A DNA stretch of 22,620 bases from contig DFFM01000003.1 of NCBI GenBank assembly GCA_002369515.1, positions 5,944 through 28,563 of the forward strand, in the 5' to 3' direction. The notes beneath the pieces were generated by a model. That model did not search any database and was not told where the DNA came from. It saw nothing but the letters and a program-made list of their open reading frames with translations. The first letter of the stretch is position 1. Every line of letters begins with the position of its first letter. Made by a program: the position numbers and the translations under genes. This DNA is from Prevotella sp. UBA3776. GTDB lineage: Bacteria; Bacteroidota; Bacteroidia; Bacteroidales; Bacteroidaceae. Below are positions 4,746-22,620 of the stretch, piece after piece.

Positions 4746-4789
4746 ACGTTAAAAAACATGGATTTCGGAAACAAAAACAACCAAAATCA

Positions 4790-4819: not shown

Positions 4820-4825
4820 TGCAGC

Positions 4826-4942: not shown

Positions 4943-4955
4943 ATGCCCGCAAGCA

Positions 4956-4985
4956 TTGAAATGTCATTTGTTTTCATTATCTTTG
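4956..4985 (+). promoter_or_regulatory. Promoter of the YbjN-like gene
   Basis: TTG at 4956-4958, a 19-bp spacer and TATCTTTG at 4978-4985 give a full consensus match. Transcription would start near 4991, about 30 bases ahead of the ATG at 5021. This excludes the longer reading frame beginning at 4943. Confidence 0.82.
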
Positions 4986-5020
4986 CAGCTGAAAAGATAC
5001 TGACAACGAAGAAAACCACA

Positions 5021-5695
5021 ATGGAAATAGTATTGCTCATACTGCTCATTGCCATCATCGTGATGCTCGCGCTCATTGCCAAGTCCATTGGCAACCAGAT
5101 GCGCGCGAACAAGCAGCAAATGGCGCTCAAGGCCGAACAAAAGGCTGCTGAGGAATCGGAACGGGCCAGGAAAGCGCAAGAGCAAGCCCAACAGGAAGCA
5201 CTCAAGGCGCAGCTGCCCACCGACGGCAACGCCGACAAGGGCGAACAGGGCGAAGAGCAGGTGGCCACACGCCAGTTGGTCATCGACACGCTCTGCAAGA
5301 TGAACTGCACCCCACGTGTGCAGGAGAACACGGGCATAGCCTTCAACTTCCAGGGGGGCAACTTCGTCATCGACGCCGAGGACGGGTGCAAGTTCATCAT
5401 CGTTTACTACCCTTTCTGGTACACTTTCCGACCTGACGACATCGAAATGTTGGCGGCATGCCAAAAAGCCGTCAGCCGAGCCAACCACAAATACAACTGT
5501 ACGACGCTCTACTCCATCTACAAGGACGAAAACGCCGTGGCACTGCACACCAAGCGGCAAATGCTGTTCATCAAGGAAATCCCTGCGCTGGAGCAGTATC
5601 TGCCCAGCATGCTGGCCGACTTCTTCAGGTCGGCCCACGAGGTGGCCGCCGAAATGGACAAGGTGAAGGAGCTGGAAGAAACGGGGTCTCACTAG
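5021..5695 (+). CDS. Membrane-anchored coiled-coil protein with YbjN-like domain
   Basis: The product is 224 residues. Residues 1-22 form one membrane segment (MEIVLLILLIAIIVMLALIA). Residues about 25-75 are a charged Ala/Glu/Gln/Lys-rich coiled coil, and residues about 80-215 form a globular domain reminiscent of YbjN or type III chaperone-like folds (VIDTLCKMNCTPRVQ, VYYPFWYTF, SRANHKYNC). The start is set at 5021 because the promoter's -7 element lies inside the longer possible frame. The protein is likely anchored in the inner membrane with the domain in the cytoplasm. Its function is unknown; YbjN itself is a poorly understood regulator or chaperone-like protein. The gene stands alone between a promoter and a terminator. 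The gene is sure, the fold is a tentative reading. Confidence 0.85.
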   Translation: MEIVLLILLIAIIVMLALIAKSIGNQMRANKQQMALKAEQKAAEESERARKAQEQAQQEALKAQLPTDGNADKGEQGEEQVATRQLVIDTLCKMNCTPRVQENTGIAFNFQGGNFVIDAEDGCKFIIVYYPFWYTFRPDDIEMLAACQKAVSRANHKYNCTTLYSIYKDENAVALHTKRQMLFIKEIPALEQYLPSMLADFFRSAHEVAAEMDKVKELEETGSH

Positions 5696-5773
5696 ACTCG
5701 CCGCGTCACACGCCAGACAAGGACACACGCCGCAGCCAAACCGCAACAACCGCCGCCACTCGACCGCAACACC

Positions 5774-5799
5774 GAAAGCCCTCGGGGCTTTCTTTTTTT
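5774..5799 (+). terminator. Intrinsic terminator
   Basis: GAAAGCCC (5774-5781), loop TCG, GGGCTTTC (5785-5792) and seven T form a textbook terminator behind the YbjN-like gene. It lies only about 40 bases ahead of the next receptor gene, for which no consensus promoter is visible. Confidence 0.9.
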
Positions 5800-5840
5800 A
5801 TACTCAATCACAACAAAAACAAAGAAAAACAAAACAAGAA

Positions 5841-7922
5841 ATGAAAACCAAAAGTTTCAATGCGCGACGAGCGCTTCGCTTCAGACAGTTCAGCCGCAAG
5901 AACTACGCGCTGTTCAGCTGCCTGGGACGTGAGGTGCTCATCGGCACACTGAGCGTGGCCACCTTGACCTATGCCAAGGCCGACGGCGTGAGCGTGGAGC
6001 CGATGAAGCCCGACACGGTGAAGACGAGCCGCGAGGTGAGACTGGACGAGGTAAGCGTTACCGGATCCAGGGCACCGCTGACAAGGAGTCAGCAGGCACG
6101 CATGGTGACTGTGCTGGACCGCGCCGACATTCAGGCGGCGCCAGTGCAAAGTATGAACGATTTGCTCAAATACGCCGTGGGCGTAGATGTCCGTCAGCGC
6201 GGACCCATTGGAGCGCAGACTGACGTCAGCATACGAGGCGGCAACTATGAGCAAATAACCATCCTGCTCAACGGCATCAACATTTGCGACCCGCAAACCG
6301 GCCACAATGCCTTCGATTTTCCCCTCGACATTGCCGACGTGGAGCGCATAGAAGTGCTCGAAGGGCCTGCCGGACGAGTCTATGGAACGTCGTCGCTGGT
6401 GGGGGCCATCAACATCGTCACCAAGCAAGACCGCGAAAACGCATTCGACGCAAGGGTGGAAGGCGGATCCTACGCCTGGCTCAGCACAGCCGCCAGAGCT
6501 GCCATCGCCACCCAACGCCCAGCCTCCACCACCCTCCTGTCCAACAGCATCTCGGCCAACTACACTCGCAGCGACGGCTACAGCCGCAACAAGGCGGGCG
6601 GCCTCAACGCCGACTTCAGCGGCGCAAAACTGTTCTACCAAGGCCACTACGACGACAGCAACGCCCAGGTGAGCTGGCATGCTGGACTGAGCGTGAAAGG
6701 ATTCGGCTCGAACACCTTCTACGGGGCTAAATGGGACGACCAATACGAACGCACACTCAAGACTTACACCGCACTGCAAGCCGAAAACAAACACGGGCGC
6801 TTCCACATGAAGCCCTCCATCTACTGGAACCGAACGATGGACCGCTTCGAACTGTTTCGCGGAAGTCCCGAAAGCTACCCCTTCAACTATCACCGAACCG
6901 ACGTGTTCGGCATCAACCTGAACAGCTACTTCGACTGGGCGCTGGGGCGCACGGCCGTTGGAGCCGAACTGCGCAACGAAGACCTCGTGAGCGGCAACCT
7001 GGGCGAGCCGCTCGCCAAGAAGCACCACATCCACGGCACCGACCGCTACTATGAATACGGGCTCAACCGCACCAACATCAGCCTCATGCTGGAACACAAC
7101 ATCCTGCTGGAACGATTCACCCTCTCGGCTGGCATCGTGGCCGTGAAAAACTCGTGGAGCGAGATGAACATGCGCGTCTATCCAGGGGTGGACGCCAGCT
7201 ACCGCATAGGCGACCACTGGAAACTGTATGCCTCGTACAACACATCGCTGCGCATGCCGTCGGTCACCGAACTCTACTACTCGGTGGGCGGACACAAGGC
7301 CGACAAACACCTCAAGCCCGAAGAACTCGCGGCCATCGAGGGCGGCGTGAAATATGCCTCGCGCACCGTGGACGGTTCGCTGAGCGTCTATCACAACCGT
7401 TGCAGCAACCTCATAGACTGGATTCGCCGAACCCACGACGCCGACGCGCCGTGGGAGTCGGTGAACTTCACCAGAGTGAACGCCCTGGGCCTGGAAACGG
7501 CCCTCACGCTCAACTTCCAGGAGCTGTTGCCCCAGCAGAACGTGCTCCGAAAAATCAACCTCGCCTACAACTACATCGACCAGGACAAGGAGGAGACCGA
7601 AGGCATACAGAGCCAATACTCGCTGGAATACCTGCGCCACAAACTGGTGTGCAACCTGCAGATGCATCTCGTAGGACTGCTCAACCTCGGACTGAACTAT
7701 CGATTCCAAGACCGCACGGGCACCTACACCGACAGCAATGGCAACGTGCAGGACTACAAGCCCTACGGCATCATCGACGCCCGGTTGAGTTGGGACGCAC
7801 CCACATACAAACTCTACGTGGAGGCCAACAACCTGTTTGACAAGACCTACGTGGACTTCGGCCACATTCCGCAGCCCGGCATCTGGATCATGGCAGGAGC
7901 CAGCATCCATCTGCCGTTCTGA
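5841..7922 (+). CDS. TonB-dependent receptor with extended signal region (BtuB-like)
   Basis: This 693-residue outer-membrane receptor has a TonB-box-like segment (residues about 65-73, EVRLDEVSV). Its plug domain (about 90-195) carries SIRGGNYEQ, LLNGINICDPQTG and VERIEVLEGPAG-VYG, and a barrel follows that ends in an aromatic residue (HLPF). The overall look is BtuB/siderophore-receptor-like. The first ~47 residues are unusual: a long basic and aromatic stretch (about 9-31, with RFRQFSRKNYALFS) precedes the hydrophobic core (EVLIGTLSVATLTYA), unlike the short signal peptide of the thiamine receptor. I recall a similar start in other Bacteroidetes receptors. The ligand is unknown; no riboswitch or metabolic gene lies next to it. 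A TonB transducer gene follows about 390 bases downstream. Confidence 0.92.
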   Translation: MKTKSFNARRALRFRQFSRKNYALFSCLGREVLIGTLSVATLTYAKADGVSVEPMKPDTVKTSREVRLDEVSVTGSRAPLTRSQQARMVTVLDRADIQAAPVQSMNDLLKYAVGVDVRQRGPIGAQTDVSIRGGNYEQITILLNGINICDPQTGHNAFDFPLDIADVERIEVLEGPAGRVYGTSSLVGAINIVTKQDRENAFDARVEGGSYAWLSTAARAAIATQRPASTTLLSNSISANYTRSDGYSRNKAGGLNADFSGAKLFYQGHYDDSNAQVSWHAGLSVKGFGSNTFYGAKWDDQYERTLKTYTALQAENKHGRFHMKPSIYWNRTMDRFELFRGSPESYPFNYHRTDVFGINLNSYFDWALGRTAVGAELRNEDLVSGNLGEPLAKKHHIHGTDRYYEYGLNRTNISLMLEHNILLERFTLSAGIVAVKNSWSEMNMRVYPGVDASYRIGDHWKLYASYNTSLRMPSVTELYYSVGGHKADKHLKPEELAAIEGGVKYASRTVDGSLSVYHNRCSNLIDWIRRTHDADAPWESVNFTRVNALGLETALTLNFQELLPQQNVLRKINLAYNYIDQDKEETEGIQSQYSLEYLRHKLVCNLQMHLVGLLNLGLNYRFQDRTGTYTDSNGNVQDYKPYGIIDARLSWDAPTYKLYVEANNLFDKTYVDFGHIPQPGIWIMAGASIHLPF

Positions 7923-7943
7923 AAGAAACGATTGGGCTGAGGA

Positions 7944-8022
7944 AAGTCCCGAATGGACAGATATAAGCCTCGATAGGGCTGACAAAAGCCTCGAATGGAC
8001 GTCCTAAAAGCCCCGAATGGGG
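7944..8022 (+). repeat. Degenerate 21-bp tandem repeat
   Basis: Four copies of a unit close to AAGCCTCGAATGGAC start at 7944, 7965, 7986 and 8008, a period of 21-22 bases with diverged spacers. It lies directly after the receptor stop codon and does not code. It could be a protein-binding array or a decayed insertion; nothing in it decides this. Confidence 0.6.
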
Positions 8023-8055
8023 AGTCAACGACGTGAATTGACAAAACATTAGCTA

Positions 8056-8161
8056 GCAACCCAAAAATATCTCCCGACGCGGCGCTCAAATTTTCTAGAG
8101 AATTTGAACGCCGCGTCGGGAGATATTTTTGGGTTGCCGGGAGATAATTTTTTATCTTCCG
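8056..8161. repeat. Long near-perfect palindrome plus adjoining hairpin
   Basis: Positions 8056-8096 are the reverse complement of 8097-8137 with only two mismatches (8085/8108 and 8093/8100), giving 41-bp arms centred on CTAG. A second hairpin follows at once: GGGAGATAA (8139-8147), TTTT, TTATCTTCC (8152-8160). Its arms repeat the CGGGAGATA motif of the large palindrome. No T-run follows, so it is not a standard terminator, although it sits between two + strand genes. It may be a MITE or REP-like mobile palindrome. The 386-bp gap it lies in also holds the 21-bp repeat and a promoter. Confidence 0.85.
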
Positions 8162-8225
8162 ACACGAGCGGGCTAAACAATTATTAAAAACATGGCTACG
8201 AGGATGGATTGTTGGGGTTTTCGTC

Positions 8226-8254
8226 TTTGTTTTCCTAAAACTTTTGTAATTTTG
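8226..8254 (+). promoter_or_regulatory. Probable promoter of tonB
   Basis: TAATTTTG at 8247-8254 fits the -7 consensus; TTTG at 8226-8229 is a possible -33 element, but its spacer (17 bp) is slightly short. The start would lie near 8261, about 48 bases before the ATG at 8309. This argues against the upstream start at 8192. Confidence 0.6.
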
Positions 8255-8308
8255 CGGCGTGTTGGGAGCTCCAGGCTCCACACAACAACCATTACCACAA
8301 CAGCAGCC

Positions 8309-9016
8309 ATGGAGGTAAAAAAGTCATATCAAGCCGATCTGGAGCGTCGCCGTCCCGCGAGATTTCTCTTGGGACTGGTGGTGGCGTTGGCATTGTTCTT
8401 CGTGGCCTTGGAGTGGAATTTCAGCCAAGACGACTCGTTCGACGAATCGCTTCTCGAGGACATCGCCCAAGACCTTGAGGCGCTGCCTGTACGCCAGCCC
8501 GAGCCCATGATGATTGTGGAGCAGGTGCGCAAGGAACCCGTGGTGGCCGAAAAGATAAACGTGGTGAAGAACGCCGTTGAGGAGAAAGCGGCCGAACTGT
8601 CGCCCACCGCGCAGGTGGAGACCGAGGGCATGGTGGACGAGGCTGTCATCGAGGAGACCACTCCCGAAGCGCTCACCCCTGCCGACGCGAAGAGCGACGA
8701 GGTGCTTCACTTCAGGGTGGTGGAAGAGATGCCCGAATTTCCCGGAGGCATGGTGGCCTTCATGAAGTGGCTCACCCAAAACCTGCACTACCCGCCTCAG
8801 GCCAAGGAGCAGAAGCAGCAGGGAACGGTGGTGGTTTCGTTTGTGGTCAATGCCGACGGATCGGTGAGCGACGCCCGCCTGGTGAAACCCAAGCATGTGC
8901 TGCTCGACCGCGAGGCCATGCGCGTTTTGCGCCTGATGCCGACATGGAAACCCGGCAAAGACCATGGGCAGCCCTGCCGCACACTGGTGTGCATCCCCAT
9001 CGTGTTCCAGCTGTAG
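8309..9016 (+). CDS. tonB: TonB-family energy transducer
   Basis: The product is 235 residues. A short cytoplasmic N-terminus leads into one membrane helix (about 18-36, LLGLVVALALFFVALEW). A Glu/Val/Pro-rich periplasmic linker follows (about 40-135), and then a TonB C-terminal domain (about 143-235) with FPGGMVAFMKWL, YPPQAKE, GTVVVSFVVNADGSV and the closing ACRT/PIVFQL-like end. TonB transmits proton-motive force from ExbB/ExbD to outer-membrane receptors. Bacteroidetes have many TonB paralogues, so partnership with the receptor encoded just upstream is only suggested by position. The start at 8309 is chosen because it leaves a normal TonB N-terminus and follows the promoter; the extra upstream residues have no family resemblance. 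No exbB/exbD is in the window. Confidence 0.88.
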   Translation: MEVKKSYQADLERRRPARFLLGLVVALALFFVALEWNFSQDDSFDESLLEDIAQDLEALPVRQPEPMMIVEQVRKEPVVAEKINVVKNAVEEKAAELSPTAQVETEGMVDEAVIEETTPEALTPADAKSDEVLHFRVVEEMPEFPGGMVAFMKWLTQNLHYPPQAKEQKQQGTVVVSFVVNADGSVSDARLVKPKHVLLDREAMRVLRLMPTWKPGKDHGQPCRTLVCIPIVFQL

Positions 9017-12763: not shown

Positions 12764-14179
12764 TCAAAACGCGACTCCCACACCAATTGAAATACGACTC
12801 TTACCAACGAAATCGCTTAGTTTAGACTCTATGGCCCATCGGTATTGATAAGTCAGTCTGAAAGCGAAATAGCTGTATTTGGCGGTGATACCCACGACCG
12901 GGGAGATGGCAAATGCGAAATTTGTTTTTTGCCAAGCCTCCAGAAGGTTGTCATTATTACTATTCTCAACCTGTTCTTTGGTCAAGTCAGGATTTGTATC
13001 GAATCCCATTTTTTTCTGGTCCAAAAGATCTTTTTCATCATATCCCTTTTCAGGATACTGTTTTGACAAATAAGTTCCATAATAGAACTTTCCTGTGACA
13101 CCAGGTCCGACATGAATCCAGATGGGGTCAGCTATCTTCACTGTCCAACCAAACGACATGTTCACCTCGGGGAAACTCTTGTCGCCATAATAGCAGTCTT
13201 TGCGAATGGCATCAAAGATGTGAGTATTGATGTCCATTTGGAAGAATCCACCAACCTTGTGCTGGTTGTATTTTCCATAGTGGATGCCTATGGGTACATC
13301 TTTCCGCCACTCATATGAGAAAACGCGCGAATGGTCTCGTTTGGCCGTAGCGAGCGAATTGATTGTATGGATACGCATTTCAGCCGATTGTGCATAGCGA
13401 CATTCTTTGTCAATTACGCGCTGATAGAGTTCCTTGGCCTTCTCATAGTCCTTTTCCATGTAATACGATTCTGCCTTATTGAAGAACAGTTCACAGTCGC
13501 TGGCGAAACTGTTGCTGCACTGTGCATACTGCTCAGCTGCATAAGAATCGTATGGGTTTAGTTTTGTTATCTGCATGTAGTCCTTCATGGCTTTCACATA
13601 ATCCAACGTCTTGAATGCCTCGTCTGCCGATTTCCGCAGAGCTTGAAGAGTGTCGATGGTGGCGATGTTCCGCTCGTTTTCCTCTTTGTCAACATCTGTA
13701 CACTCTCGTGCCACTTCAAACTGGTTGCGGGCCTCCTCGTAGTTCATGTTTTTCATCTCAGCCATGCCGCGGTTGCGGTGTTCGCGATAGCATCCTGCAT
13801 CAACCATGGCATTGGGGTCGGTCAGCCGGAAAGTCAGCAGTTGCTTGGGCTGTAGTTCCAGTGGTATTTCTACCGAGCTGTAGCCGGGTGCAGAGGCAAT
13901 CAGCACACGCCCCCGATAGCGGTTGCCAGTAGGGAAAGCTATATAATATATAGAGTCACTTCCCTGAATGTCAGTTTTAAAAGGAGTAGCACTTTTGTCC
14001 ATCGTGGAAACAAAAGTCAGCGGAATGGACTGATGGCAGAAAATAGCCACAGCAGCTTCGTCTTTAGCACTTGAATAGACATCATTCGGTTGAGAAACAT
14101 TACTTACTTCCAATACGTTCTGCGCTTGGGCAAGGCTGGGAGCCAATGCCAACAAGCAGATAATCATTTTTTTAATCAT
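12764..14179 (-). CDS. Secreted TPR protein with probable outer-membrane C-terminal domain
   Basis: The product is 471 residues. Residues 1-20 are a signal peptide (MIKKMIICLLALAPSLAQAQ). Residues about 45-125 look like a small beta domain of the PEGA/regulatory type (APGYSSVEIPLELQPKQ). Residues about 130-285 contain TPR-like helices (NYEEARNQFEVA, DYVKAMKDYMQITKLNP, DYEKAKELYQRVI). The last ~180 residues are rich in alternating aromatic strands and end in IGVGVAF, the usual end of an outer-membrane beta-barrel. I infer an outer-membrane protein with a periplasmic TPR arm, the last gene of the signalling operon, 30 bases behind its upstream neighbour. Its role could be sensing or output at the outer membrane; no enzyme motif is visible. 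Confidence 0.85.
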   Translation of the reverse strand: MIKKMIICLLALAPSLAQAQNVLEVSNVSQPNDVYSSAKDEAAVAIFCHQSIPLTFVSTMDKSATPFKTDIQGSDSIYYIAFPTGNRYRGRVLIASAPGYSSVEIPLELQPKQLLTFRLTDPNAMVDAGCYREHRNRGMAEMKNMNYEEARNQFEVARECTDVDKEENERNIATIDTLQALRKSADEAFKTLDYVKAMKDYMQITKLNPYDSYAAEQYAQCSNSFASDCELFFNKAESYYMEKDYEKAKELYQRVIDKECRYAQSAEMRIHTINSLATAKRDHSRVFSYEWRKDVPIGIHYGKYNQHKVGGFFQMDINTHIFDAIRKDCYYGDKSFPEVNMSFGWTVKIADPIWIHVGPGVTGKFYYGTYLSKQYPEKGYDEKDLLDQKKMGFDTNPDLTKEQVENSNNDNLLEAWQKTNFAFAISPVVGITAKYSYFAFRLTYQYRWAIESKLSDFVGKSRISIGVGVAF

Positions 14180-14209
14180 AGCATTACTTTTATGTTAATA
14201 ATATTTTTC

Positions 14210-15205
14210 CTATTCTTTCAAAATTCTGAAACTTCCAAGATGGAACACGTCGTTTTCCGATGTTATCACTTCTCCCTGTTTGTTCTTGTAGGGCTGCCAT
14301 GTACGCACCTGGATGAGGGGAAAGTCTGCATCGCGGAAATCCACCATCAGGAAAAGATAACCCTCGTCTTGATAGCGGTCTGTATGCCACTGTTGCTTCA
14401 ACGTCACGCCATAGATGTCATCATACTTTGGATGCTGAACCACCTCGATGTCTTCAAACTTCACGTTCACATATTTTGTAGTTTTGAAAACGTGTTCCAA
14501 ATTCTTAAGATATTCCTGTTTAGACTGTTTGATATAGACGACACGATTATTGTTGAGTGTCATTTTTGTAATGTCCGAATTAGGTTTCTCTTTGAGCACT
14601 TTTCCTGTGATGATAAGTGCTCTGTCACTATACACGCTGTTGAGCAATTTCAGGTCTTTTCGGTTGTAAGCTGTGCGGAAATTATCTACGAAGTTGACAA
14701 TGATCTGCTTGCGCGCATAGTCCATGTCCGAGGACTGTTCGGCCATTATTTCGTCGTAACGGTGCATTTCGATAGCAATAGACACATTGCTGATTTTTCC
14801 ATCAGAAGTAAAATCAACGGCCAGTTCCTGGCGTTTCTCTCCAGAGTCTGCCTCTACCACATCAACAGGGATGCCTCGTACCTGATATCCCGAAGGGGTT
14901 TTCAGGCATCGAGCGTTGATGTTCATGTCGGGAATAGTCATCCCACTGCTTTTCCAGATGGCACTCAGTTCCTTGATTGCTTCGCTCGTGAAATTTTGTT
15001 TTGAGAGCTTGACAGACTTTTCACCCGCTTGAACGGTTTCATTGAAAGTGCTAATCATTTGGTTTACATTTGCCTCGATGGTAGATTTCAGTCTGTTGTC
15101 TGATATGCCTTCCATAATTTTGAACACCCCACTGGCCATGGCTTTAGCTGACAAAGCCATGAAAAGTACAATGAGCAGTTTTGTTCTTATGTTATTCTGT
15201 TTCAT
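14210..15205 (-). CDS. Secreted protein with NTF2-like domain
   Basis: The product is 331 residues with a signal peptide (residues 1-25, ending A-M-A-S). Residues about 30-160 have no fold I recognise. From about 165 to 300 the sequence looks like an NTF2/SnoaL-like domain (NFVDNFRTAYNRKDLKLLNS, VYSDRALIITG, and later W-H-T-D-RYQDEGYLFLMVDF). NTF2-like folds are small alpha-beta cones that bind ligands or dimerise; many serve as extracytoplasmic sensor modules. The gene begins four bases after the preceding stop, so it belongs to the operon of the kinase and phosphatase. A role as periplasmic partner of the kinase system is inferred from position only. Confidence 0.82.
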   Translation of the reverse strand: MKQNNIRTKLLIVLFMALSAKAMASGVFKIMEGISDNRLKSTIEANVNQMISTFNETVQAGEKSVKLSKQNFTSEAIKELSAIWKSSGMTIPDMNINARCLKTPSGYQVRGIPVDVVEADSGEKRQELAVDFTSDGKISNVSIAIEMHRYDEIMAEQSSDMDYARKQIIVNFVDNFRTAYNRKDLKLLNSVYSDRALIITGKVLKEKPNSDITKMTLNNNRVVYIKQSKQEYLKNLEHVFKTTKYVNVKFEDIEVVQHPKYDDIYGVTLKQQWHTDRYQDEGYLFLMVDFRDADFPLIQVRTWQPYKNKQGEVITSENDVFHLGSFRILKE

Positions 15206-15209
15206 GTCT

Positions 15210-15851
15210 TTATTTGATATTAAGTGATTTTATATTGTCTTGTGGAATATTGGCGTAGAACTCTGCATGCAGTGGAATTTCCGGGTCGAAGAGTTGCTTG
15301 GCTGGCATCCTCAGTTCCAGCAGATGGATATATTTTGACTGTTGTTCGTAGAACACCAACCACGCCTGCAGCTCATGATTATCGACTATGGCTACCCGGC
15401 TGTATATTTTCATAATAGGTCCCCAAAGGTTGAACAACCGACTCAGGGGTACAGTCATCAGAGCAATGTGATTGCCATACTGATGGTGGCGTAATTCAAT
15501 CTGACGTTTTCCTGCAGGCACTCGGGCCAGAAGCAGGTTCACCATCGACTCTACAGGATAGCGGCTATCAAAGAGAGGTTGCCACTTGCCGTGTACACTC
15601 TTGACAAAAAAGTCGGAGCGTAGTGATTTGATCTGAAAGGCTTCGCCTTCTACACGGAAGATTCCCCGCTCGTTGGTCTCCCTGAGGCAGGTCTTCTCAA
15701 TGCTTTGTTCTGGATGCCAATTCTTTGTCTCACTGCCTTTGAGCAAGTCCATGAGTACATGCTGATCGGCTTCTGCTTTGTCTTCTACTTTCTGTGCATT
15801 CGCGCAAACAGTGCATAAAGCAAGAATAACAGACATTAATACCTTTTGCAT
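15210..15851 (-). CDS. Secreted protein of unknown function
   Basis: I do not recognise this 213-residue protein. It has a signal peptide (residues 1-19, MQKVLMSVILALCTVCANA). The mature part is mixed alpha/beta with two conserved-looking blocks, HGKWQPLFDSRYPVESMVNL and LRMPAKQLFDPEIPLHAEF. Only two cysteines occur in the whole protein outside the signal peptide or near it, so no metal site is evident. The gene lies 41 bases behind the FGE-fold gene and four bases ahead of the NTF2-like gene, so it is a periplasmic member of the signalling operon. Nothing further can be supported. Confidence 0.8.
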   Translation of the reverse strand: MQKVLMSVILALCTVCANAQKVEDKAEADQHVLMDLLKGSETKNWHPEQSIEKTCLRETNERGIFRVEGEAFQIKSLRSDFFVKSVHGKWQPLFDSRYPVESMVNLLLARVPAGKRQIELRHHQYGNHIALMTVPLSRLFNLWGPIMKIYSRVAIVDNHELQAWLVFYEQQSKYIHLLELRMPAKQLFDPEIPLHAEFYANIPQDNIKSLNIK

Positions 15852-15892
15852 ATCATTTATTGTTTAGATGGTTATAAATACAGGGGCGAAGA

Positions 15893-16795
15893 CTATTCTG
15901 CAAGCCTGAGTCCGACCGTATTAAAACGCTCCATTGCATCGTCATCAAATCGGAACGAAACTCTGCATAGTTTTTCACTACTCCGCCAACTTCCTCCACG
16001 ATTCACTCTGCTGTCCGACGACTGTTGACCAGACGAAACTTCCGCAGGTGTATTTTCACTGCCGCTTTCGTAAGCAGTCTTATGGTCGCTGCACCATTCC
16101 CACACATTTCCAGCCATGTCGAAAAGCCCTAATTCATTGGCTTGTTTCTTACCAACTTCATGCGTTTCGCTGTCACTGTTGTAATCATACCAAGCCACCT
16201 TGTCGGCATCGCTGCTACCAGCAAATTTTGTACACTTGCTTTTGCCTCCACCACGCGCGGCATATTCCCACTCGGCTTCTGTGGGCAGGCGAAACTGCCT
16301 GCCGGTCATTTTGTTGAGTTTCTCAATAAATTGCAGACAATCATTCCACGAAACCCGTTCCACTGGCCGTTTGTTGCCTTTAAAGTGTGAAGGGTTGCTG
16401 CCCATTACAGCAGTCCATTCTTCTTGTGTAACCTCGTATTTCCCAATCGAGAACGATGCCACCATGACTCGATGGGCTGGTTTCTCGTCATCGCCAGCAT
16501 CCTTTCCTTGCTCCTCGGTAGCTCCCATTCTGAATGTTCCTCCTTCAACTTGTACCATATTGTTCAGCATATTTTGTATGATGGTTTTAGAGGAGAGTCG
16601 TTGTTCGTCTGTTCGCTTCTGCATACTTTTTTTTGTCTTTTTCTTTCGTCGAGAAGCATCAGAGGTGTTCTTGCCTTTCTTGGAGATCTTTTCTATTCTT
16701 GGGCCGATGCTTATGGTTTGCCCCATTGCCACGTTGGCGCTGAGAAACAGGAGCAAGAAAGATAGAATCAGGTGAAGTCTTTTTTCCATTTTCAT
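15893..16795 (-). CDS. Secreted SUMF1/FGE-fold protein, probably not a formylglycine-generating enzyme
   Basis: The product is 300 residues. Residues 1-25 are a signal peptide, 33-75 a basic linker, and 77-300 an FGE-sulfatase (SUMF1) domain with GGTFRMG (85-91), KYEVTQEEW, PVERVSWNDC, RLPTEAEWEYAARGG, DMAGNVWEWCSD and NRGGSWRSSEKLCR. In true FGE two cysteines bind copper in the motif GGSYMCHRSYC. Here the first is serine (S272) and only the second (C277) remains, so sulfatase activation is unlikely. Inactive members such as GldK or C-type-lectin-like proteins serve structural or ligand-binding roles. Its ATG overlaps the kinase stop (ATGA), suggesting matched synthesis. Domains of this kind are often found with bacterial Ser/Thr kinases, as sensor domains or partner proteins; that role is inferred here. 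Confidence 0.9.
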   Translation of the reverse strand: MKMEKRLHLILSFLLLFLSANVAMGQTISIGPRIEKISKKGKNTSDASRRKKKTKKSMQKRTDEQRLSSKTIIQNMLNNMVQVEGGTFRMGATEEQGKDAGDDEKPAHRVMVASFSIGKYEVTQEEWTAVMGSNPSHFKGNKRPVERVSWNDCLQFIEKLNKMTGRQFRLPTEAEWEYAARGGGKSKCTKFAGSSDADKVAWYDYNSDSETHEVGKKQANELGLFDMAGNVWEWCSDHKTAYESGSENTPAEVSSGQQSSDSRVNRGGSWRSSEKLCRVSFRFDDDAMERFNTVGLRLAE

Positions 16796-18285
16796 TTACC
16801 GTTGCTTATTTTTACGATTATCTTGCCATTCTGGTCATACCATGTACCGTTATAAGGCTTTCCTTTGCTGAAAGAACCTTCAAAATATTGCCCAGTAGAG
16901 TTGATAGTCAGTCGACCTTTTGCATACAAATTGTTTTCGAAAGAACCCTCGAACGTGTTTTCGGTTCCGTATTTGAATGTGGCCTTTGAGCCCGAAAATA
17001 CGCCATGATCCATGGAGCCTTCATAACTGTTACCGTTGGGCTTACCATCCTTGATGAATATAGCTTTGCCAATGCCATGAGGCTCACCTTTTTCATCAAC
17101 TTGTCCAGTATAGATATATTCTCCCAAGACGGCATTCATGAAAGTCTTGCCCTCTACATTCTTAATGCTGCTGATATCATTGTTTTCGATACTTTCTTCA
17201 AGGCTGTTGGCTTGAGAACTGCGTCCTAATGCAAAGATTAATCCAAAAGCTATGATTGCAATCAGTGCCACACCTACCCATAACATTTTTTTATGTTTTG
17301 ATGCTTGGTCATTTTGTGTTGGTTGCTGCTTAGCAGAGGCTGTTGACCTAGGGGCAAATACCGTACCTATTTCGGTGTTAACGTCAACCTCTTTTCCATC
17401 CTGAAGAAAGGCTTTGATTTCATCTACCGATTGAGGACGGGCATTTCTGTTATACTCCATCATCCAGACAATCAATTTTCGCATCTTCTCACTCACGTTC
17501 GTTGGGAAGTGAAAAGCTTTCTCACGCTCATCCTGTATGTCGGTTCCATCGGGAGGAGTGTTGCCTGTCAGTACATAATATATGGTTGCTCCCAAAGAAT
17601 AGATGTCTGTCCATGGGCCGAACTTGTCAAAACGCAAATCTTTTTGCTCCATAGGTGCATAACCTGGTGTATAGCAGAGTGCAGAACTTGCTGATGCCCC
17701 GCTTCCATCAGCCTTTTGCTGCTTGCTGGCTCCAAAATCGATCACCCTCAGTCGGTCTTGCTTGTCAACCATCAGGTTGGCCGGTTTCAAATCCAGATGG
17801 AATATTCCCTTGCGATGTACTTCCTGCAGGGCGCGAAGCGTTTGGTCAAGATAGCGCAAGGCCGTCTGTTCGTTAACCGGGCCATGCTGTTTCACAATGT
17901 CACGCAGAGACTGCCCGTCGATAAAGTCCATGACATAGTAAGAAGTTTCGTTCTCGTCGAAAAGGTCTGTTACCTTTACGATGTTCTCACAACTGAGTTT
18001 GCGTATGCGCTGGGCTTCCTTGTTGAATTTTTCACGTTGCTCAATAAATTTTGGAGTATTGGTGGTATTGCTCACGCTGACGGTATTGTCTTTTTCACGC
18101 TGGTTGACCCCTTTCATGAAAAACTCCTTAATAGCCACCTTTTCATCGAATCTTAAGTCAGTGGCTAGATAGGTGTTGCCGAAGCCTCCTGACGAGAGAT
18201 AACGCTCAATGCAATATCTGCCTTGCTGAAGAGTTGTGCCATTGCTGAGCATTTCTTCGTTGAACTGTTTTTCTTGACTTGCCAT
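16792..18285 (-). CDS. Transmembrane Ser/Thr protein kinase with MORN-like outer part
   Basis: The product is 497 residues. Residues about 24-300 are a eukaryotic-like (PknB-type) kinase domain: glycine loop GGFGNTY (33-39), lysine K53 (VAIKE), catalytic loop HLDLKPAN (163-170) and DFGASK (183-188), all intact. Then come a linker with a T-V-F sequence (about T308), one membrane helix (about 334-355, LWVGVALIAIIAFGLIFALG) and about 140 outside residues. This last part has MORN-like repeats (GEPHGIGKAIF, GNSYEGSMDHGVF, NTFEGSFENNLYAKGRL, QYFEGSFSKGKPYNGTWY). The start at 18285 is two bases behind the phosphatase stop and gives a normal kinase N-terminus; the frame extends upstream to 18360 but only over phosphatase sequence. 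It should phosphorylate Thr/Ser on cytoplasmic proteins in response to an envelope cue. Confidence 0.93.
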   Translation of the reverse strand: MASQEKQFNEEMLSNGTTLQQGRYCIERYLSSGGFGNTYLATDLRFDEKVAIKEFFMKGVNQREKDNTVSVSNTTNTPKFIEQREKFNKEAQRIRKLSCENIVKVTDLFDENETSYYVMDFIDGQSLRDIVKQHGPVNEQTALRYLDQTLRALQEVHRKGIFHLDLKPANLMVDKQDRLRVIDFGASKQQKADGSGASASSALCYTPGYAPMEQKDLRFDKFGPWTDIYSLGATIYYVLTGNTPPDGTDIQDEREKAFHFPTNVSEKMRKLIVWMMEYNRNARPQSVDEIKAFLQDGKEVDVNTEIGTVFAPRSTASAKQQPTQNDQASKHKKMLWVGVALIAIIAFGLIFALGRSSQANSLEESIENNDISSIKNVEGKTFMNAVLGEYIYTGQVDEKGEPHGIGKAIFIKDGKPNGNSYEGSMDHGVFSGSKATFKYGTENTFEGSFENNLYAKGRLTINSTGQYFEGSFSKGKPYNGTWYDQNGKIIVKISNGK

Positions 18286-18287
18286 GT

Positions 18288-19304
18288 TTAAAAGATAATT
18301 AAAGTTACCAACAAAAGAACGATGGCCACAAGGGCACATAACGCACAGATTATCCACCAAATAGGCTTTCTCTTGTCAGAGAGATCAGCATTCTGCTGGG
18401 GCATAGGTTGATAATGTGTCGCTTCGGTATTTTCTTCATCATTCACAACTCTCACGTCCTGATCGGTCTGCAAAACGGGATGGATGTGAATAGCATTGAA
18501 GCGCACTTTCTGTTCGTCATTTTGCAGCGCATCATCACCCTCTTCTGCTTGCATGTCACTGATATGTATTAAGTAGGCCGAATGGTTGTCTGCGTTTCCT
18601 TTTGTCATATCTATCAGTTTCCGGCGTTTTTGCTCGTCGTTGTCATCGGCGGTCAACCAGGCCATCAATTCATCATCGTCAATTCGTTCCAAAATACCAT
18701 CAGAGCAGATAAGAAAATAGTCTCCGGGGAGTATGTCAGTAATGTGTGCGATGTCCATCCGCTGCCGGTTTTCTTTCCCTGCAATCATGGCTTTGCTAAT
18801 CTGGTTCCTCCGTGGGTGGGTTTTCATCTCCTTGTATGAGATTTCGCCTGCTTGATAGAGTTCGAAAACGAGCGAGTGGTCACGCGACTTGTATAAAATC
18901 GACTTTGACGAGGGACGAAAGTGGTAGATGCGGCTGTCGCCTATATGAGCTGCAGTGCAACCGCCACGATGGAAATAGAGCAGCGTCATGGTGGTTCCAG
19001 CTTTGCGGAATTCTCCGTTGTCTTTGCTGTCAAGAAGCAGATAAGCTTGTTCTAATGCTGCCTGTAGTTGCTCATCGGTCAGAACTTCGCTGCTTAGGAT
19101 GTAGGTTTCAAAATAGTCGGACAGTCCCTGACATACAGCGTTGCTTGCCACTTCTCCACGCTCATGGCCTCCCATGCCGTCGCACAAAACGAACAGACGA
19201 TCGTCTTGCGTGGCTTCACCTGGTGCAGGATAGATGCAGTCTTCCTGATTGGTGCGGTTGCCCATTTCAAGAACTGCTTGTGGGGGAAAGAGTTTTACTA
19301 TCAT
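18288..19304 (-). CDS. Tail-anchored PP2C-type Ser/Thr phosphatase
   Basis: The product is 338 residues. Residues about 8-255 form a PPM/PP2C domain with GNRTNQEDC (E21-D22), LFVLCDGMGGHERGE (D42-G43), HIGDSRIY, RDHSLV, LICSDGILE and the final NADNHS aspartate-asparagine motif, so the metal-binding acids appear intact. An acidic linker of about 60 residues follows, and the last ~24 residues are a single membrane helix (PIWWIICALCALVAIVLLLV) with nothing beyond, i.e. a C-terminal anchor. The enzyme would dephosphorylate the targets of the kinase encoded two bases downstream. It stands eight bases behind the zinc-ribbon/FHA gene. The kinase-phosphatase-FHA trio is the standard layout of bacterial threonine-phosphorylation switches. 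Confidence 0.93.
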   Translation of the reverse strand: MIVKLFPPQAVLEMGNRTNQEDCIYPAPGEATQDDRLFVLCDGMGGHERGEVASNAVCQGLSDYFETYILSSEVLTDEQLQAALEQAYLLLDSKDNGEFRKAGTTMTLLYFHRGGCTAAHIGDSRIYHFRPSSKSILYKSRDHSLVFELYQAGEISYKEMKTHPRRNQISKAMIAGKENRQRMDIAHITDILPGDYFLICSDGILERIDDDELMAWLTADDNDEQKRRKLIDMTKGNADNHSAYLIHISDMQAEEGDDALQNDEQKVRFNAIHIHPVLQTDQDVRVVNDEENTEATHYQPMPQQNADLSDKRKPIWWIICALCALVAIVLLLVTLIIF

Positions 19305-19312
19305 TTCGTTTG

Positions 19313-19864
19313 TTATTCTTCTGTATATACAATTAATGTATGGCCCATTTTTAGGTGAGTACCGTTCGTGAGTACCACTTCGTCGTCGGTTTCCAACTGC
19401 AAATCATTTACAATAGTAACAAGATTATCTTTGTAATTGCGGATGAGGGTCCTGATGCTGCCGTCTGCAATTCTTTTTATGTTGATGACAGCATGCTCGC
19501 GGCTCATTTGGTAGTCGTTAGTTGGAATTTGGACATCTGCATTCGATGTCTTCGATTCTCTTCCTACCAGATTTCTTCCTAAGCGCAAGGGGTATTTCTT
19601 GTCTTTGAAAAGCAATGCTCCGGGATGTTCAGACACGGCTTGTGGCAATTGCGTAAGCGCATTGTCGTCAGAACAGTTTTGCCGTGTGATGCCTTGCATG
19701 CCGCCATAGACAGTCTTGCCCTTTTCATCAGGCAGAGAGTCACCGAAAGTGACTCTCTGCTGATGGTTGCAGTTCGGACAATGAATATCCCTGTACGGTT
19801 CTCCGTTGCGTTGCGGAACATCTAAGGTGATTCCACAGGAGTTGCAACAGATTCTCTTTACCAT
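19313..19864 (-). CDS. Zinc-ribbon/FHA phosphothreonine reader
   Basis: The product is 183 residues. A zinc ribbon at the start uses C7-x2-C10 and C29-x2-C32. A flexible segment with K-T-V-Y-G-G-M at 50-56 follows, then an FHA domain (about 90-183) with LGRNLVGR, MSREHAVI and a final beta strand. FHA domains bind phosphothreonine peptides, and the SREH motif carries the usual phosphate-contacting serine/arginine. A threonine motif just ahead of an FHA domain recalls GarA/OdhI, where it is phosphorylated and then bound intramolecularly. The same T-[IV]-Y-G-G-M occurs in the next-upstream gene product. It begins five bases behind that gene and ends eight bases before the phosphatase. The protein is soluble; its partner is unknown. 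Confidence 0.9.
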   Translation of the reverse strand: MVKRICCNSCGITLDVPQRNGEPYRDIHCPNCNHQQRVTFGDSLPDEKGKTVYGGMQGITRQNCSDDNALTQLPQAVSEHPGALLFKDKKYPLRLGRNLVGRESKTSNADVQIPTNDYQMSREHAVINIKRIADGSIRTLIRNYKDNLVTIVNDLQLETDDEVVLTNGTHLKMGHTLIVYTEE

Positions 19865-19869
19865 GGCTC

Positions 19870-20769
19870 TTAAATATGTGAAACGTCAGTTGCAGAAGTG
19901 TCGTCAGCACCGGAATCAGCCATGAGATTTCCCATGTTGGGATCGTGCAGAGGATTGAGATTGGCATCGAGCAACTCGTCTGTAACAGCGTCCATGGCCT
20001 CGCCATTGTCAATCTGCAGATTGTCGTTCTTGTCAACGATTACGATGTCGTGCTTGTCATCGTCGTGGAAGTTAACAACGGCAGCATTGTGTCCGTCAAC
20101 TACATAGTTGTCAACGCTGAACTCCGTCTCGTTCACCTTGACGTTGTCTGTGCTTACGTATGATACAACATGTACGTCGTCGTCTTTGGGCTCCTGGGGC
20201 TGCTCCTGGGGGTCGTTAAGAACATAGTTGTGCTCGTGAATCTCCAGATTGTCAATGTGGATGTCGGGCTCTTTCTCTGTGATGTGGATGGTTTCGATGC
20301 GTTGCACGGGGTACTGCGGGTGTACGTTTGATGCAAAGGTCAGCTTGTCGTGGTCGTTCAGTGCATCCCATTCTTCCTTAGTGTAGGTGTTGTAGATGCC
20401 GCCATGCCACTCGAAGAGTCCACCAGGACCAACCTGGGCACGAGCCTCGGCAAATGCATGCTCGAACGAATCGGTGGGTACATTCTTGGCAACAGGCATG
20501 CTGGTTGCTTTAGCTGTACCTTCAGCATTGCCAGCTTCTTCTGCATTGGGGGTCTCAGCAGGCTGTTCGTCAGCAGATTCAGCTGTTCCTGCAGCCATGG
20601 CATCTGTTGCGTAGAGAGCACCGGCTCCCATCAGGATTCCCGTAGCAGCACCTAAACCGATGAACTTCCAGGGCACATCCTTCTTGCCTTCCTTTTCGTT
20701 TACTACTTGAGGATTCTCCTCGTTCTCTACTGGCATTCCGCCATAAATGGTCTCATCATTTGGTTTCAT
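19870..20769 (-). CDS. Membrane protein of unknown function with N-terminal TIYGGM motif
   Basis: I do not recognise a family for this 299-residue protein. The N-terminal tail (1-33) carries D-E-T-I-Y-G-G-M (5-12). One membrane helix spans about 36-54 (FIGLGAATGILMGAGALYA). Ala/Glu-rich sequence follows (58-95), then a block with FEHAFAEARAQVGPGG, FEWHGGIYNTYTKEEWDAL and a long Asp/His/Val-rich stretch (about 160-299) of short repeated strands such as VDNYVVDGHNAAVVNF and DDDKHDIVIVDKNDNLQID. The tail is probably cytoplasmic and the rest periplasmic, so the threonine at position 7 would be within reach of the kinase. It is the first gene after the internal promoter at 20813-20843 and may be a main substrate or structural member of the system. 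Confidence 0.82.
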   Translation of the reverse strand: MKPNDETIYGGMPVENEENPQVVNEKEGKKDVPWKFIGLGAATGILMGAGALYATDAMAAGTAESADEQPAETPNAEEAGNAEGTAKATSMPVAKNVPTDSFEHAFAEARAQVGPGGLFEWHGGIYNTYTKEEWDALNDHDKLTFASNVHPQYPVQRIETIHITEKEPDIHIDNLEIHEHNYVLNDPQEQPQEPKDDDVHVVSYVSTDNVKVNETEFSVDNYVVDGHNAAVVNFHDDDKHDIVIVDKNDNLQIDNGEAMDAVTDELLDANLNPLHDPNMGNLMADSGADDTSATDVSHI

Positions 20770-20812
20770 AATCTTTAATGTTTTAAGTGGTTAATAATCA
20801 TGTTTGACAATG

Positions 20813-20843
20813 CAAAGATAGTTCATTTTGAATCGGTTGTCAA
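20813..20843 (-). promoter_or_regulatory. Internal promoter of the signalling operon
   Basis: Read on the - strand: TTG (20843-20841), a 20-bp spacer and TATCTTTG (20820-20813). This is a full consensus match in the only large gap (134 bases) of the cluster, and it starts transcription near 20806, about 37 bases ahead of the TIYGGM protein gene. Confidence 0.82.
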
Positions 20844-20903
20844 TACTTTAGCCACGATACGTTATGAAATGATATGGTTGCGTTACAAAATGGCCGATAA
20901 TCG

Positions 20904-21590
20904 CTATTTTCTGAACAAAGACTTGCAATAGGGACAATTGTCGTTGAGAGACAACTGGTCGTAGGGCTGTGAGAAATGCCGTTTACAATGAGGGCAAGCA
21001 TAGTCGCGCTGGAATTTCTCATTCAATTTCATGCGTTCTTTGGGGAGTTTGCTCGCATCAACATACGACTTGATAAAGAATGTCAGCGAAAGCAGGATAG
21101 CCACACTATATAATATGGTATATATCATTCCCGAATTTTCTCGTCCGATAATGAATCCACAAGCGATGGCCGCCATTGTAATGATGCCGGTGCCCGTGCG
21201 AAGGGCGTTAAACTTGTTCTGCTTCACGGTTAACTCAAGTGTGTCTTTGTTATATTGGTCCCATATTTTTTTAAGTGGCCTGATATCGGCTACCTTTGGT
21301 TTAAACTGGCTTACGAGTGACCAGTCCAGCAAAAAATGGTCTTCGCCCAATTCCACGACGTCTTTTTCTGTCACTTTCTTGACTTCGATGGGAACACCAT
21401 TTACATAAGTAACATTTTGTGCCTTTAGGTTCTTCAATTCGTAAGTGCCGTCAGAATTGATGGTAATGCAGCAGTGGGGGCGACTTACCGACTTTGGCAC
21501 ACTGCCTTCCGCTCCGATGAGTTTCTTCAGTTGTCCCACAGCGATCATCAGTTTTGAGGCTTCTGCGTCTCGTCCAATAATGATTTCCAT
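20904..21590 (-). CDS. FHA domain / two-TM / zinc-ribbon protein
   Basis: The product is 228 residues. An FHA domain fills about 1-90 (IIIGRDAEASKL, SVSRPHCCITI, NVTYVNG), with the serine-arginine of the phosphothreonine pocket at 36-37. Two membrane helices lie at about 132-149 (TGTGIITMAAIACGFIIG) and 154-174 (MIYTILYSVAILLSLTFFI). The C-terminus is a zinc ribbon with C199-x2-C202 and C219-x2-C222. Both ends are therefore in the cytoplasm, with a short hairpin in the membrane. It probably brings phosphorylated partners to the inner membrane. The gene starts three bases behind the LytTR gene, so the two form a transcription unit ahead of the internal promoter. Confidence 0.9.
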   Translation of the reverse strand: MEIIIGRDAEASKLMIAVGQLKKLIGAEGSVPKSVSRPHCCITINSDGTYELKNLKAQNVTYVNGVPIEVKKVTEKDVVELGEDHFLLDWSLVSQFKPKVADIRPLKKIWDQYNKDTLELTVKQNKFNALRTGTGIITMAAIACGFIIGRENSGMIYTILYSVAILLSLTFFIKSYVDASKLPKERMKLNEKFQRDYACPHCKRHFSQPYDQLSLNDNCPYCKSLFRK

Positions 21591-21593
21591 ATT

Positions 21594-21959
21594 CTATACC
21601 TTTTTACTTATTAAAAGTTCTTTCATCTTCCTGAGTGCTTCTTTTGATACAGGCAATTGGAAGGTGAAGTTATGATAGTCTGAAAGTATTAATGTCTGTT
21701 TGGCCACATGGATAGAATAGATGTAGCTGGTGTTAATGATGAACCTTTTCCCCAGTCTGAAAAAAATACTGGCTTTTTCTCCATATTGCAAAGCTAGAAA
21801 TTCTTCCATTTTGCTAAGGTTCATGCTTACTGTCCCTTTAATCTTGTTGGGAGTGACAATATATGTCAGATTGCCGTCTCCTTCAAAATAGACAATCTCT
21901 TGTAGGTCTATTCGAAGGAGCTGGTCGCGCGAATTGAATATGATAAAATTTGATTTCAT
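21594..21959 (-). CDS. Stand-alone LytTR DNA-binding regulator
   Basis: The product is 121 residues from the ATG at 21959; another in-frame ATG at 21980 would add seven residues and cannot be excluded. It consists almost wholly of a LytTR DNA-binding domain: LLRIDLQEIVYFEGDGNLTY, the middle segment with MSKMEEF-like helix, and KRFIINTSYIYSIHVAKQ near the end. There is no receiver domain, so it is not a classical response regulator. LytTR proteins bind direct-repeat sites and regulate surface or stress genes. As first gene of the cluster it may regulate this locus, possibly its own long leader. Input could come through protein partners or phosphorylation by the kinase; the sequence does not decide this. 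Confidence 0.88.
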   Translation of the reverse strand: MKSNFIIFNSRDQLLRIDLQEIVYFEGDGNLTYIVTPNKIKGTVSMNLSKMEEFLALQYGEKASIFFRLGKRFIINTSYIYSIHVAKQTLILSDYHNFTFQLPVSKEALRKMKELLISKKV

Positions 21960-22371: not shown

Positions 22372-22379
22372 CAAAGATA
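22372..22379 (-). promoter_or_regulatory. -7 promoter element for the LytTR transcription unit
   Basis: TATCTTTG on the - strand is a perfect -7 box and the only TAnnTTTG match upstream of the cluster. No TTG lies at 19-21 bases ahead of it, so the promoter may be weak or depend on an activator. Confidence 0.45.
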
Positions 22380-22530: not shown

Positions 22531-22586
22531 TAACGCTAACGTTACCCCAAGCAGCTTACGGATGGCCGTTGACGTTAGCGTTAGCG
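22528..22586. repeat. 14-bp inverted repeat of AACGCT units
   Basis: CGCTAACGCTAACG (22528-22541) is the exact reverse complement of CGTTAGCGTTAGCG (22573-22586), with a 31-base loop. It begins inside the end of the right direct repeat. It may be a terminator-like stem, an end structure of the island, or a repeat element; no T-run follows. Confidence 0.8.
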
Positions 22587-22620
22587 AATTCATTTCGACC
22601 TATAGCTCATTTTGCAGGAT

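Follow-up and report, generated by a model that had tools for sequence, protein, structure and literature searches.

The window analysed here, a 22,620-nucleotide stretch of the genome of Prevotella sp. UBA3776, carries a cassette of signalling genes that could encode a phosphothreonine switch centred on the membrane and coupled to a transcription loop of its own, a reading to which we give a probability of about one half. A kinase would write the phosphothreonine mark, a PP2C phosphatase would erase it, FHA proteins would read it and a LytTR protein would set the supply of TIY, a membrane protein bearing a candidate phosphosite. This reading is supported by the conserved gene order, by the conservation of Thr7 in TIY, by the enrichment of the motif surrounding it, by the joint decay of several parts in one clade, by the repeats at the TIY promoter and by the kinase-FGE fusions found in relatives. 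Bacterial Ser/Thr phosphorylation with FHA readers is best known from mycobacteria and from type VI secretion (PMC3953482). In this recurring cassette of gut and rumen Bacteroidales, the probable phosphosite, its reader and eraser and the DNA target can all be proposed from the sequence by itself.

In the proposed mechanism, an envelope cue would be sensed by an exported FGE protein together with the outer portion of the kinase, which is MORN-like in the window and of FGE type in some relatives. The kinase would phosphorylate Thr7 in the cytoplasmic tail of TIY, as well as the matching threonine in the linker of the ZnR_FHA protein, and the two FHA proteins would bind these phosphothreonines, forming at the inner membrane a complex that the PP2C phosphatase would disassemble. 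On the DNA side, LytTR would bind the 21-bp-spaced repeats upstream of the TIY promoter, thereby setting the TIY supply, and the adjacent membrane protein, FHA_TM_ZnR, would probably control LytTR, as in the LytTR Regulatory Systems, whose membrane protein inhibits the regulator. As a whole, the scheme would resemble the threonine phosphorylation pathway of type VI secretion combined with such a LytTR system.

A preliminary description of the window had presented ten genes in one orientation as a single pathway. We confirmed the ten open reading frames (ORFs), all on the minus strand, at 12764-21959. The intergenic gaps, in transcription order, are 3, 134, 5, 8, 2, -4, 41, 4 and 30 bp; most of them thus fall within the announced 2-41 bases, and the two others are a 4-bp overlap and the 134-bp gap between genes 2 and 3, which contains a promoter-like sequence and direct repeats. 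The features on which the argument is built are the following.

21594..21959, minus strand: gene 1, LytTR, a stand-alone DNA-binding protein without receiver domain (Pfam LytTR 45.2 bits, E 1.1e-11)
20904..21590, minus strand: gene 2, FHA_TM_ZnR, with an FHA domain (Pfam 39.6 bits), two transmembrane (TM) segments read by eye and a C-terminal zinc ribbon
20881..20892, minus strand: direct repeat 1, LytTR-type, CATTTTGTAACG; in relatives the 21-bp period stands out against shuffles
20860..20871, minus strand: direct repeat 2, LytTR-type, CATTTCATAACG; its TTT begins 49 bp upstream of the -7 box
20813..20843, minus strand: promoter-like sequence of gene 3, with TTGACA at 20843-20838 and a -7 box, TATCTTTG, at 20820-20813
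19870..20769, minus strand: gene 3, TIY, with an N-terminal tail of ~33 residues, one hydrophobic segment and an acidic exported part containing GGxFxW
20749..20751, minus strand: Thr7 codon of gene 3, candidate phosphorylation site and FHA ligand, within DETIYGGM
19313..19864, minus strand: gene 4, ZnR_FHA, a zinc ribbon, a linker with KTVYGGM and an FHA domain (Pfam FHA 28.9 bits)
18288..19304, minus strand: gene 5, PP2C phosphatase with a C-terminal TM segment (Pfam PP2C_2 49.0 bits)
16792..18285, minus strand: gene 6, Ser/Thr kinase with a TM segment and an outer part read by eye as MORN-like (Pfam Pkinase 148 bits)

The domain calls of the preliminary description were borne out by Pfam for LytTR, both FHA domains, PP2C, kinase, FGE and TPR (genes 1, 2, 4, 5, 6, 7 and 10 exceed the curated cut-offs); its NTF2-like call has weak support, and for genes 3 and 8 Pfam gave no convincing family. 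LytTR is the only Pfam match of gene 1, whose relatives, taken as mechanical ORFs, are mostly 116-147 residues long (longest 179). Gene 2 retains the FHA core residues G-R, S-R, H and N-G. Gene 5 scores 155 bits with the Stp1 model, under its 230-bit cut-off, and gene 6 has the kinase strings VAIKE, HLDLKPAN and DFG. The Stk1/PknB model covers only residues 45-321 of gene 6 (175 against 450 bits) and shows none of the PASTA repeats that PASTA kinases have outside the membrane. In this genome (2.4 Mb, 66.7% complete), the FHA domains found both lie in the cassette (2/2 matches), and one kinase match is found besides that of the cassette.

The candidate phosphosite is nearly invariant. Among the matches listed, 119 of 120 TIY family members have Thr at the position of Thr7, the other (P0096) having Ala; this set comprises the window protein and 119 of the 120 sequences listed among 480 homologues, P0020, the window's own TIY with a later start, being set aside. 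In an alignment of diverse TIY proteins (A1), Thr7 is the sole invariant residue N-terminal of Trp34 in 27/27 rows. The longer TIY start is favoured because the tail is conserved and the later start of P0020 would delete it. The motif can be written acidic-acidic-T-[I/V]-[Y/I/F]. For main-type TIY proteins outside the decayed clade described below, we compared 75 distinct tails: 70 have the acidic-Thr motif, whereas shuffled tails give a mean of 27 and at most 39. In 64 of the 70, the threonine lies at residues 5-11. This count left out 36 of 128 TIY-labelled ORFs lacking GGxFxW, 15 of which bear the motif. Bacteroides, Alistipes and other relatives have tails with two motifs. Several loci (L036, L038, L045, L101, L103, L109 and others) encode an additional, short TIY-like protein that in most cases lacks the Thr motif.

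A like motif is carried by the ZnR_FHA protein. Its linkers bear it in 40 of 76 cases (shuffled mean 18.9, maximum 32); they were cut crudely and overlapping counts may double one site, equally in the shuffles. The string T-x-Y-[GA]-G lies between the zinc ribbon and the FHA domain in all 21 close members that have the region, window included (a fragment, P0163, was set aside), and in more distant members there is at least one related Thr string, for example GETQLAG, and sometimes several. With the stricter pattern [DE].?T.[YF], we observed 96 occurrences in TIY proteins against 42.8 in shuffles, and 34 against 11.4 in ZnR_FHA. This pattern is not enriched in the other nine of the eleven cassette families taken whole, three of the eleven having only 3-4 sequences, nor in 173 other mechanical ORFs (65 against 73.5 shuffled). 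The kinase stretches behind the catalytic domain show a mild excess (27 against 14.3, shuffled maximum 28), which we did not use as evidence.

The third line of evidence is the sequence preceding TIY. This gap measures 134 bp in the window, with a median of 106 bp in 69 loci. TAnnTTTG is found in 41 of these 69 gaps, against 0/77 between LytTR and gene 2 and 1/77 between ZnR_FHA and PP2C; the control gaps are mostly shorter, and among gaps of at least 60 bp the counts are 41/60, 0/6 and 1/13, respectively. The -7 box of gene 3, TATCTTTG, is of the Bacteroidetes type. Direct repeats at a period of 21 bp are present in 23 of 40 distinct box-bearing gaps (shuffled mean 0.8, maximum 3 in 20 shuffles), and none of the other periods from 10 to 32 exceeds 4 gaps. 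A core repeat pattern, composed after viewing the sequences, unlike the period scan, is found in 38 of 64 gaps (shuffled mean 0.1, maximum 2 in 200 shuffles). The distance from repeat to -7 box is 48-49 bp in 24 of 27 cases and 69-70 bp, i.e., one extra period, in the other three. Within 300 bp upstream of the genes, the core pattern precedes TIY in 52/100 loci, LytTR in 6/81, ZnR_FHA in 0/94 and PP2C in 0/80; in the window it was not found in the 300 bp upstream of LytTR. The DNA end of the route from outer membrane to DNA put forward in the preliminary description thus gains a LytTR-type repeat at the TIY promoter; the rest of that route we still only infer.

The exact pair of repeats occurs once in the window's genome, at gene 3. 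Two inexact repeats lie elsewhere in it (2 and 3 mismatches; reversed-pattern control 0) and were not counted as targets; the one inspected was unconvincing. When the pattern was relaxed and 24 genomes were scanned, 17 of them had matches, at 38 places in all (against 8 for the reversed pattern), many lying outside cassettes; the claim of a single exact site is therefore limited to the window's genome. In one genome (G173), 11 of 12 such places hold a repeat of another, more palindromic sequence (ATTTCATACTTTGAAACGT...), also with a 21-bp period, located off the cassette contig (contigs C7, C13-C15, C25, C26 and C48).

Co-occurrence in relatives had been set beforehand as the test of the preliminary description, which it did not refute. 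We searched named genomes with gene 3 as the only query and retained the best 80 of 159 matches, which gave 79 loci; four without the anchor motif (L058, L100, L121 and L126) and 5 near-duplicates were dropped from the counts, leaving 70, many of which are related, so that counts are not independent. The common order is LytTR, FHA_TM_ZnR, TIY, often an exported caspase-like protein, ZnR_FHA, PP2C, kinase. Among 52 loci with at least 6 kb upstream, LytTR was found in 39 and FHA_TM_ZnR in 45; among 44 with at least 8 kb downstream, ZnR_FHA was found in 40 and PP2C in 35, and 36 have an intact kinase within 8 kb on either side of gene 3, always on its strand. The gap between LytTR and gene 2 is 3 bp in the window and has a median of 8 bp in 77 loci. 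Of the dropped loci, with 8 kb downstream, L058 has both PP2C and kinase, and L121 has PP2C and no kinase. The kinase/phosphatase/FHA unit is thus real and recurs in diverse Bacteroidales. On the contrary, the pathway of ten genes was too broad: within 8-9 kb downstream, genes 8, 9 and 10 are found in 4, 7 and 2 of the 44 loci, and FGE, by a strict rule, in 8. Since they are rare downstream, we consider genes 7-10 as accessories, the last three being a lineage-specific addition. Of the 103 loci surveyed, two, the window and L054, showed the complete set of ten; L077 comes close with nine genes, lacking the FGE domain, and has a contig end inside its kinase. The recurring core is of six or seven genes, plus the frequent exported caspase-like protein (26/44 loci, absent from the window).

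A natural loss experiment is provided by nine loci (L067, L070, L075, L076, L079, L080, L085, L086 and L123), whose gene 2 proteins make up a single clade (support 100/99) in a tree of 92 such proteins. Over the 4.7-10 kb covered downstream, we saw in them no cassette PP2C (0/5 among the five with 8 kb) and no intact cassette kinase; L076, L079 and L080 retain a shortened kinase-like ORF, and a distinct kinase-PP2C set lies upstream in L075. Their TIY tails, of 9-13 residues, have no motif (9/9). The FHA Arg of ZnR_FHA is kept in 1/9 against 88/89 elsewhere and its Ser in 0/9 against 83/89; in the SR pair of gene 2, Arg is kept in 0/9 against 71/88 and Ser in 4/9 against 84/88. What remains is LytTR, gene 2, the outer part of TIY and, ahead of TIY, repeat-like sequence. 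The shared threonine motif, the TIY promoter with its repeats and this decayed clade are additions to the preliminary description.

The clade bears directly on the best-surviving alternative, which we regard as rather doubtful: the locus would house two modules, one in which LytTR, FHA_TM_ZnR and the TIY promoter form a phosphorylation-free LytTR Regulatory System, and another in which kinase, PP2C and ZnR_FHA act on a different target. The clade retains the LytTR side (LytTR, FHA_TM_ZnR, TIY and its upstream repeat-like sequence) and loses PP2C, the intact cluster kinase and FHA residues, and several other loci bear the motif without a cluster kinase. However, the tail motif and FHA residues on the LytTR side decayed alongside PP2C and the cluster kinase, and this joint decay ties the two halves of the cassette together; the strongly conserved gene order also argues against two independent modules.

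The published LytTR Regulatory Systems (HdrRM, BrsRM) also have a soluble LytTR gene first, a membrane-protein gene next and repeats of ~21-bp period just upstream of the promoter (PMC6193735), a likeness which speaks for the two-module explanation. The cassette shows the same LytTR-membrane gene order and the same period, at the TIY promoter. As described there, the repeats are mostly spaced by 12 bp and commonly stand 10 bp upstream of the -35 box (PMC6193735), whereas those of the window stand 16 bp from the -35-like box. They precede gene 3 and only rarely LytTR, the operon's own first gene (6/81 loci, the window not included). Moreover, the membrane partner bears FHA and a zinc ribbon, no membrane-protein family of these systems was matched in Pfam, and kinase and phosphatase are added. 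The LytTR operons reported in Bacteroides differ too, with TM-bearing LytTR proteins, an NfeD/DUF2154 partner and 11-bp repeats (PMC6193735). The cassette points to a possible coupling between phosphothreonine signalling and LytTR Regulatory Systems. In a bolder and doubtful form of the switch, phosphorylated TIY tails would gather FHA_TM_ZnR and the multi-site ZnR_FHA in a cluster at the membrane, freeing LytTR to fire the TIY promoter and make more tails. If true, this circuit would be a self-reinforcing and phosphatase-resettable switch between envelope and DNA, independent of secretion systems and scattered in gut Bacteroidales.

Several observations weigh against the phosphothreonine switch. 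The joint decay of motif, FHA cores, PP2C and kinase is one evolutionary event, not nine, and the eight decayed-clade genomes searched each have 1-6 kinase matches genome-wide. The link between LytTR and FHA_TM_ZnR is drawn from their adjacency. Among the 36 TIY-like ORFs without GGxFxW, 21, mostly the short second paralogue, lack the motif; two TIY proteins (P0096 and L064) have Ala near the site, and L072 has a cluster kinase and no tail motif. Outside the decayed clade, 4 of 39 loci (L089, L107, L118 and L128) have no intact same-strand kinase within 8 kb. No kinase domain was scored in L031, L035, L039, L090, L100, L121 and L128, most of which keep the Thr motif (L118 and L126 also score none, contig ends cutting them), and L090 and L100 lack PP2C as well. 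Genome-wide, L090, L100 and L121 have 5, 4 and 15 kinase matches, and kinases may therefore act there in trans. The AlphaFold2 model of TIY is poor (pLDDT 61.7); this weak model had no match in the PDB at E<=0.001, and a fold assignment was dropped. Finally, the hydrophobic segment of TIY (window 20593-20664) ends in A-x-A, with Ala at aligned positions 57 and 59 in 91/121 and 117/121 proteins; with such a conserved end, it may be a cleaved signal peptide. Judging from these residues, the outer part of TIY may be released by signal peptidase, the Thr tail remaining as a long signal peptide.

This last point leads to a second alternative, in our view unlikely, namely that the conserved Thr is not a phosphosite and serves membrane targeting, N-terminal processing or translation. 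The position of the motif near the N-terminus (residues 5-11), upstream of a possible signal-peptide h-region, would fit such a role. On the contrary, an FHA protein unrelated to TIY carries a T-[V/I]-Y-G-G string in its linker, some tails have two motifs, and the motif vanished together with FHA residues in one clade. The phosphothreonine switch also finds a parallel in GarA and OdhI, FHA switches in which the phosphothreonine of an N-terminal ETTS adjoins the FHA domain. The Thr motif of ZnR_FHA is similarly N-terminal to its FHA domain, but in the cassette such a motif is also present in another, separate membrane protein. The OdhI model, whose cut-off is 200 bits, gives 16 bits for gene 2 and no match for gene 4.

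The sensing end can be approached through the kinases and FGE domains. Single-domain searches of 103 loci, near-duplicates kept, gave 150 ORFs with a kinase domain; they are spread over 79 loci, each with one to four of them, and their outer parts are FGE, MORN-like or other. We counted 13 ORFs, from 12 loci, that fuse kinase and FGE, and of the 41 FGE genes that stand alone, 24 adjoin a kinase; it is mainly these two facts which suggest that the exported FGE protein serves the kinase. A signal might pass to the kinase from this protein or from the gene 10 product, the kinase-FGE fusions of relatives being the one indication of such a passage. Aligned to bacterial FGE, gene 7 has Ser at the first Cys of the pair, presumably the catalytic one, and does not qualify as a formylglycine-generating enzyme. 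Of 54 cassette FGE domains, 20 were not scorable, and a single one of the remaining 34 has both Cys. The Cys pair being broken, the FGE protein probably binds and does not catalyse.

The distribution of the cassette is patchy across Bacteroidales. The carriers retained in the search with gene 3 are mostly Prevotella-like assemblies, many from rumen, and also Prevotellaceae HUN156, Bacteroides caecigallinarum, Muribaculaceae, Alistipes and Lentimicrobiaceae. Gene 2 is present in 24 of 201 genomes of the family, including the window's (9/131 among the high-quality ones), and was not found in 12 other sampled genomes of the genus; gene 3 is present in 10 of 295 genomes of the order, including the window's, several matches being partial. 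The cassette has a GC content of 0.39-0.49 against 0.52-0.60 in the left flank, which fits a horizontal gain. Patchiness and GC would also suit a defence or conflict system, with an anti-phage-like kinase, a caspase-like executor and FGE-type binding proteins, an explanation that we find improbable. In its favour, the PADLOC models of the MADS6 and PD-T4-6 kinases match gene 6. Both caspase-like proteins tested match Pfam Peptidase_C14, and relatives keep the GHG-type string in 66/68 and the DxC-type string in 68/68. However, the PADLOC matches span many kinase models, gene 6 alone of the ten genes matches at E<=0.001, and the partner genes of MADS and PD-T4-6 were not found among the ten window genes scanned. 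Furthermore, the caspase-like proteins seen begin, by eye, with signal-peptide-like sequences, and the window has none. The kinase/PP2C/vWA and FGE conflict systems (PMC7159879) have kinase with PP2C, FGE and caspase-like parts in common with the cassette, but its core has no vWA or NTPase, and LytTR has 0 occurrences in the partial text of PMC7159879 consulted.

The weakest explanation, in which threonine phosphorylation would control a secretion system, of type VI or another kind, whose genes lie elsewhere in the genome, borrows from gene 6, whose best PDB sequence match is PpkA, from the shared classes of parts, from Agrobacterium TssL, a membrane protein whose N-terminal pThr14 (peptide DLPpTVVEI) is bound by Fha, weakly, with a Kd of 0.5-1.6 mM (PMC3953482), and from sub-cut-off matches to GldK/GldJ (gene 7), Yop-YscD_cpl (gene 2) and DotU (gene 5), but appears quite improbable, as no secretion-system family exceeded its cut-off in the ten window genes, in agreement with the preliminary description, or (by Pfam) in ten neighbour proteins of relatives, and VipB was matched in 0/24 cassette genomes, only E. 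coli matching among controls and sensitivity for the Bacteroidetes subtype being uncertain. The type VI threonine phosphorylation pathway (PpkA, PppA, Fha, TagQRST) resembles the cassette by its membrane Ser/Thr kinase, PP2C phosphatase, FHA reader and exported activator (PMC10482370), and condensates of PpkA have been reported (PMC12607579). In the window, membrane kinase, PP2C and FHA are likewise encoded together. TagR, in that pathway, has an FGE-like fold. Unlike it, the cassette has no VipB link within the sensitivity just given, TIY has no Pfam likeness to the TssL/DotU family, and there are in addition a LytTR gene with repeats, a second FHA protein with TM and zinc ribbon and often an exported caspase-like protein. 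In our searches of one open-licence library of papers, we found no description of the cassette, in line with what the preliminary description had supposed.

The accessory genes of the window are the following; all four begin, by eye, with signal-peptide-like sequences, as expected from the four exported partners that had been announced.

15893..16795, minus strand: gene 7, exported FGE-fold protein (Pfam FGE-sulfatase 167 bits)
15210..15851, minus strand: gene 8 (U3), exported protein, function not assigned, with 50 matches at E<=0.001 including the window's own
14210..15205, minus strand: gene 9, exported, with a C-terminal NTF2-like part (weak Cds6_C match, E=1.7e-4, below cut-off)
12764..14179, minus strand: gene 10, exported TPR protein (Pfam TPR), with a possible C-terminal outer-membrane barrel read by eye

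The AlphaFold2 model of gene 8 is confident (pLDDT 85.9); it has no match in the PDB at E<=0.001, its weak NTF2-like likeness reaching at best E 0.035.

Around the cassette, a vWA protein and a second PP2C_2 protein are encoded directly upstream in two relatives (L031 5884-8180 and L039 7168-9466; Pfam families for both L031 proteins and the L039 PP2C), a pair that resembles the vWA/PP2C modules of conflict systems. An exported family of BspA-type LRR-like proteins occurs in L032, L036 and L045 (Pfam LRR_5 for L032). In the window, a TATCTTTG string at 22372-22379 (minus strand), ~410 bp upstream of the LytTR start, is by eye a possible operon promoter, and a GTTAGC-type inverted repeat at 22540-22600, upstream of the operon, appears terminator-like or regulatory. 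The left flank (1223-9016, plus strand) contains, by eye, a TonB-dependent receptor, a thiamine pyrophosphokinase-like ORF, a second TonB-dependent receptor and a TonB-like protein, perhaps a thiamine uptake locus not related to the cassette.

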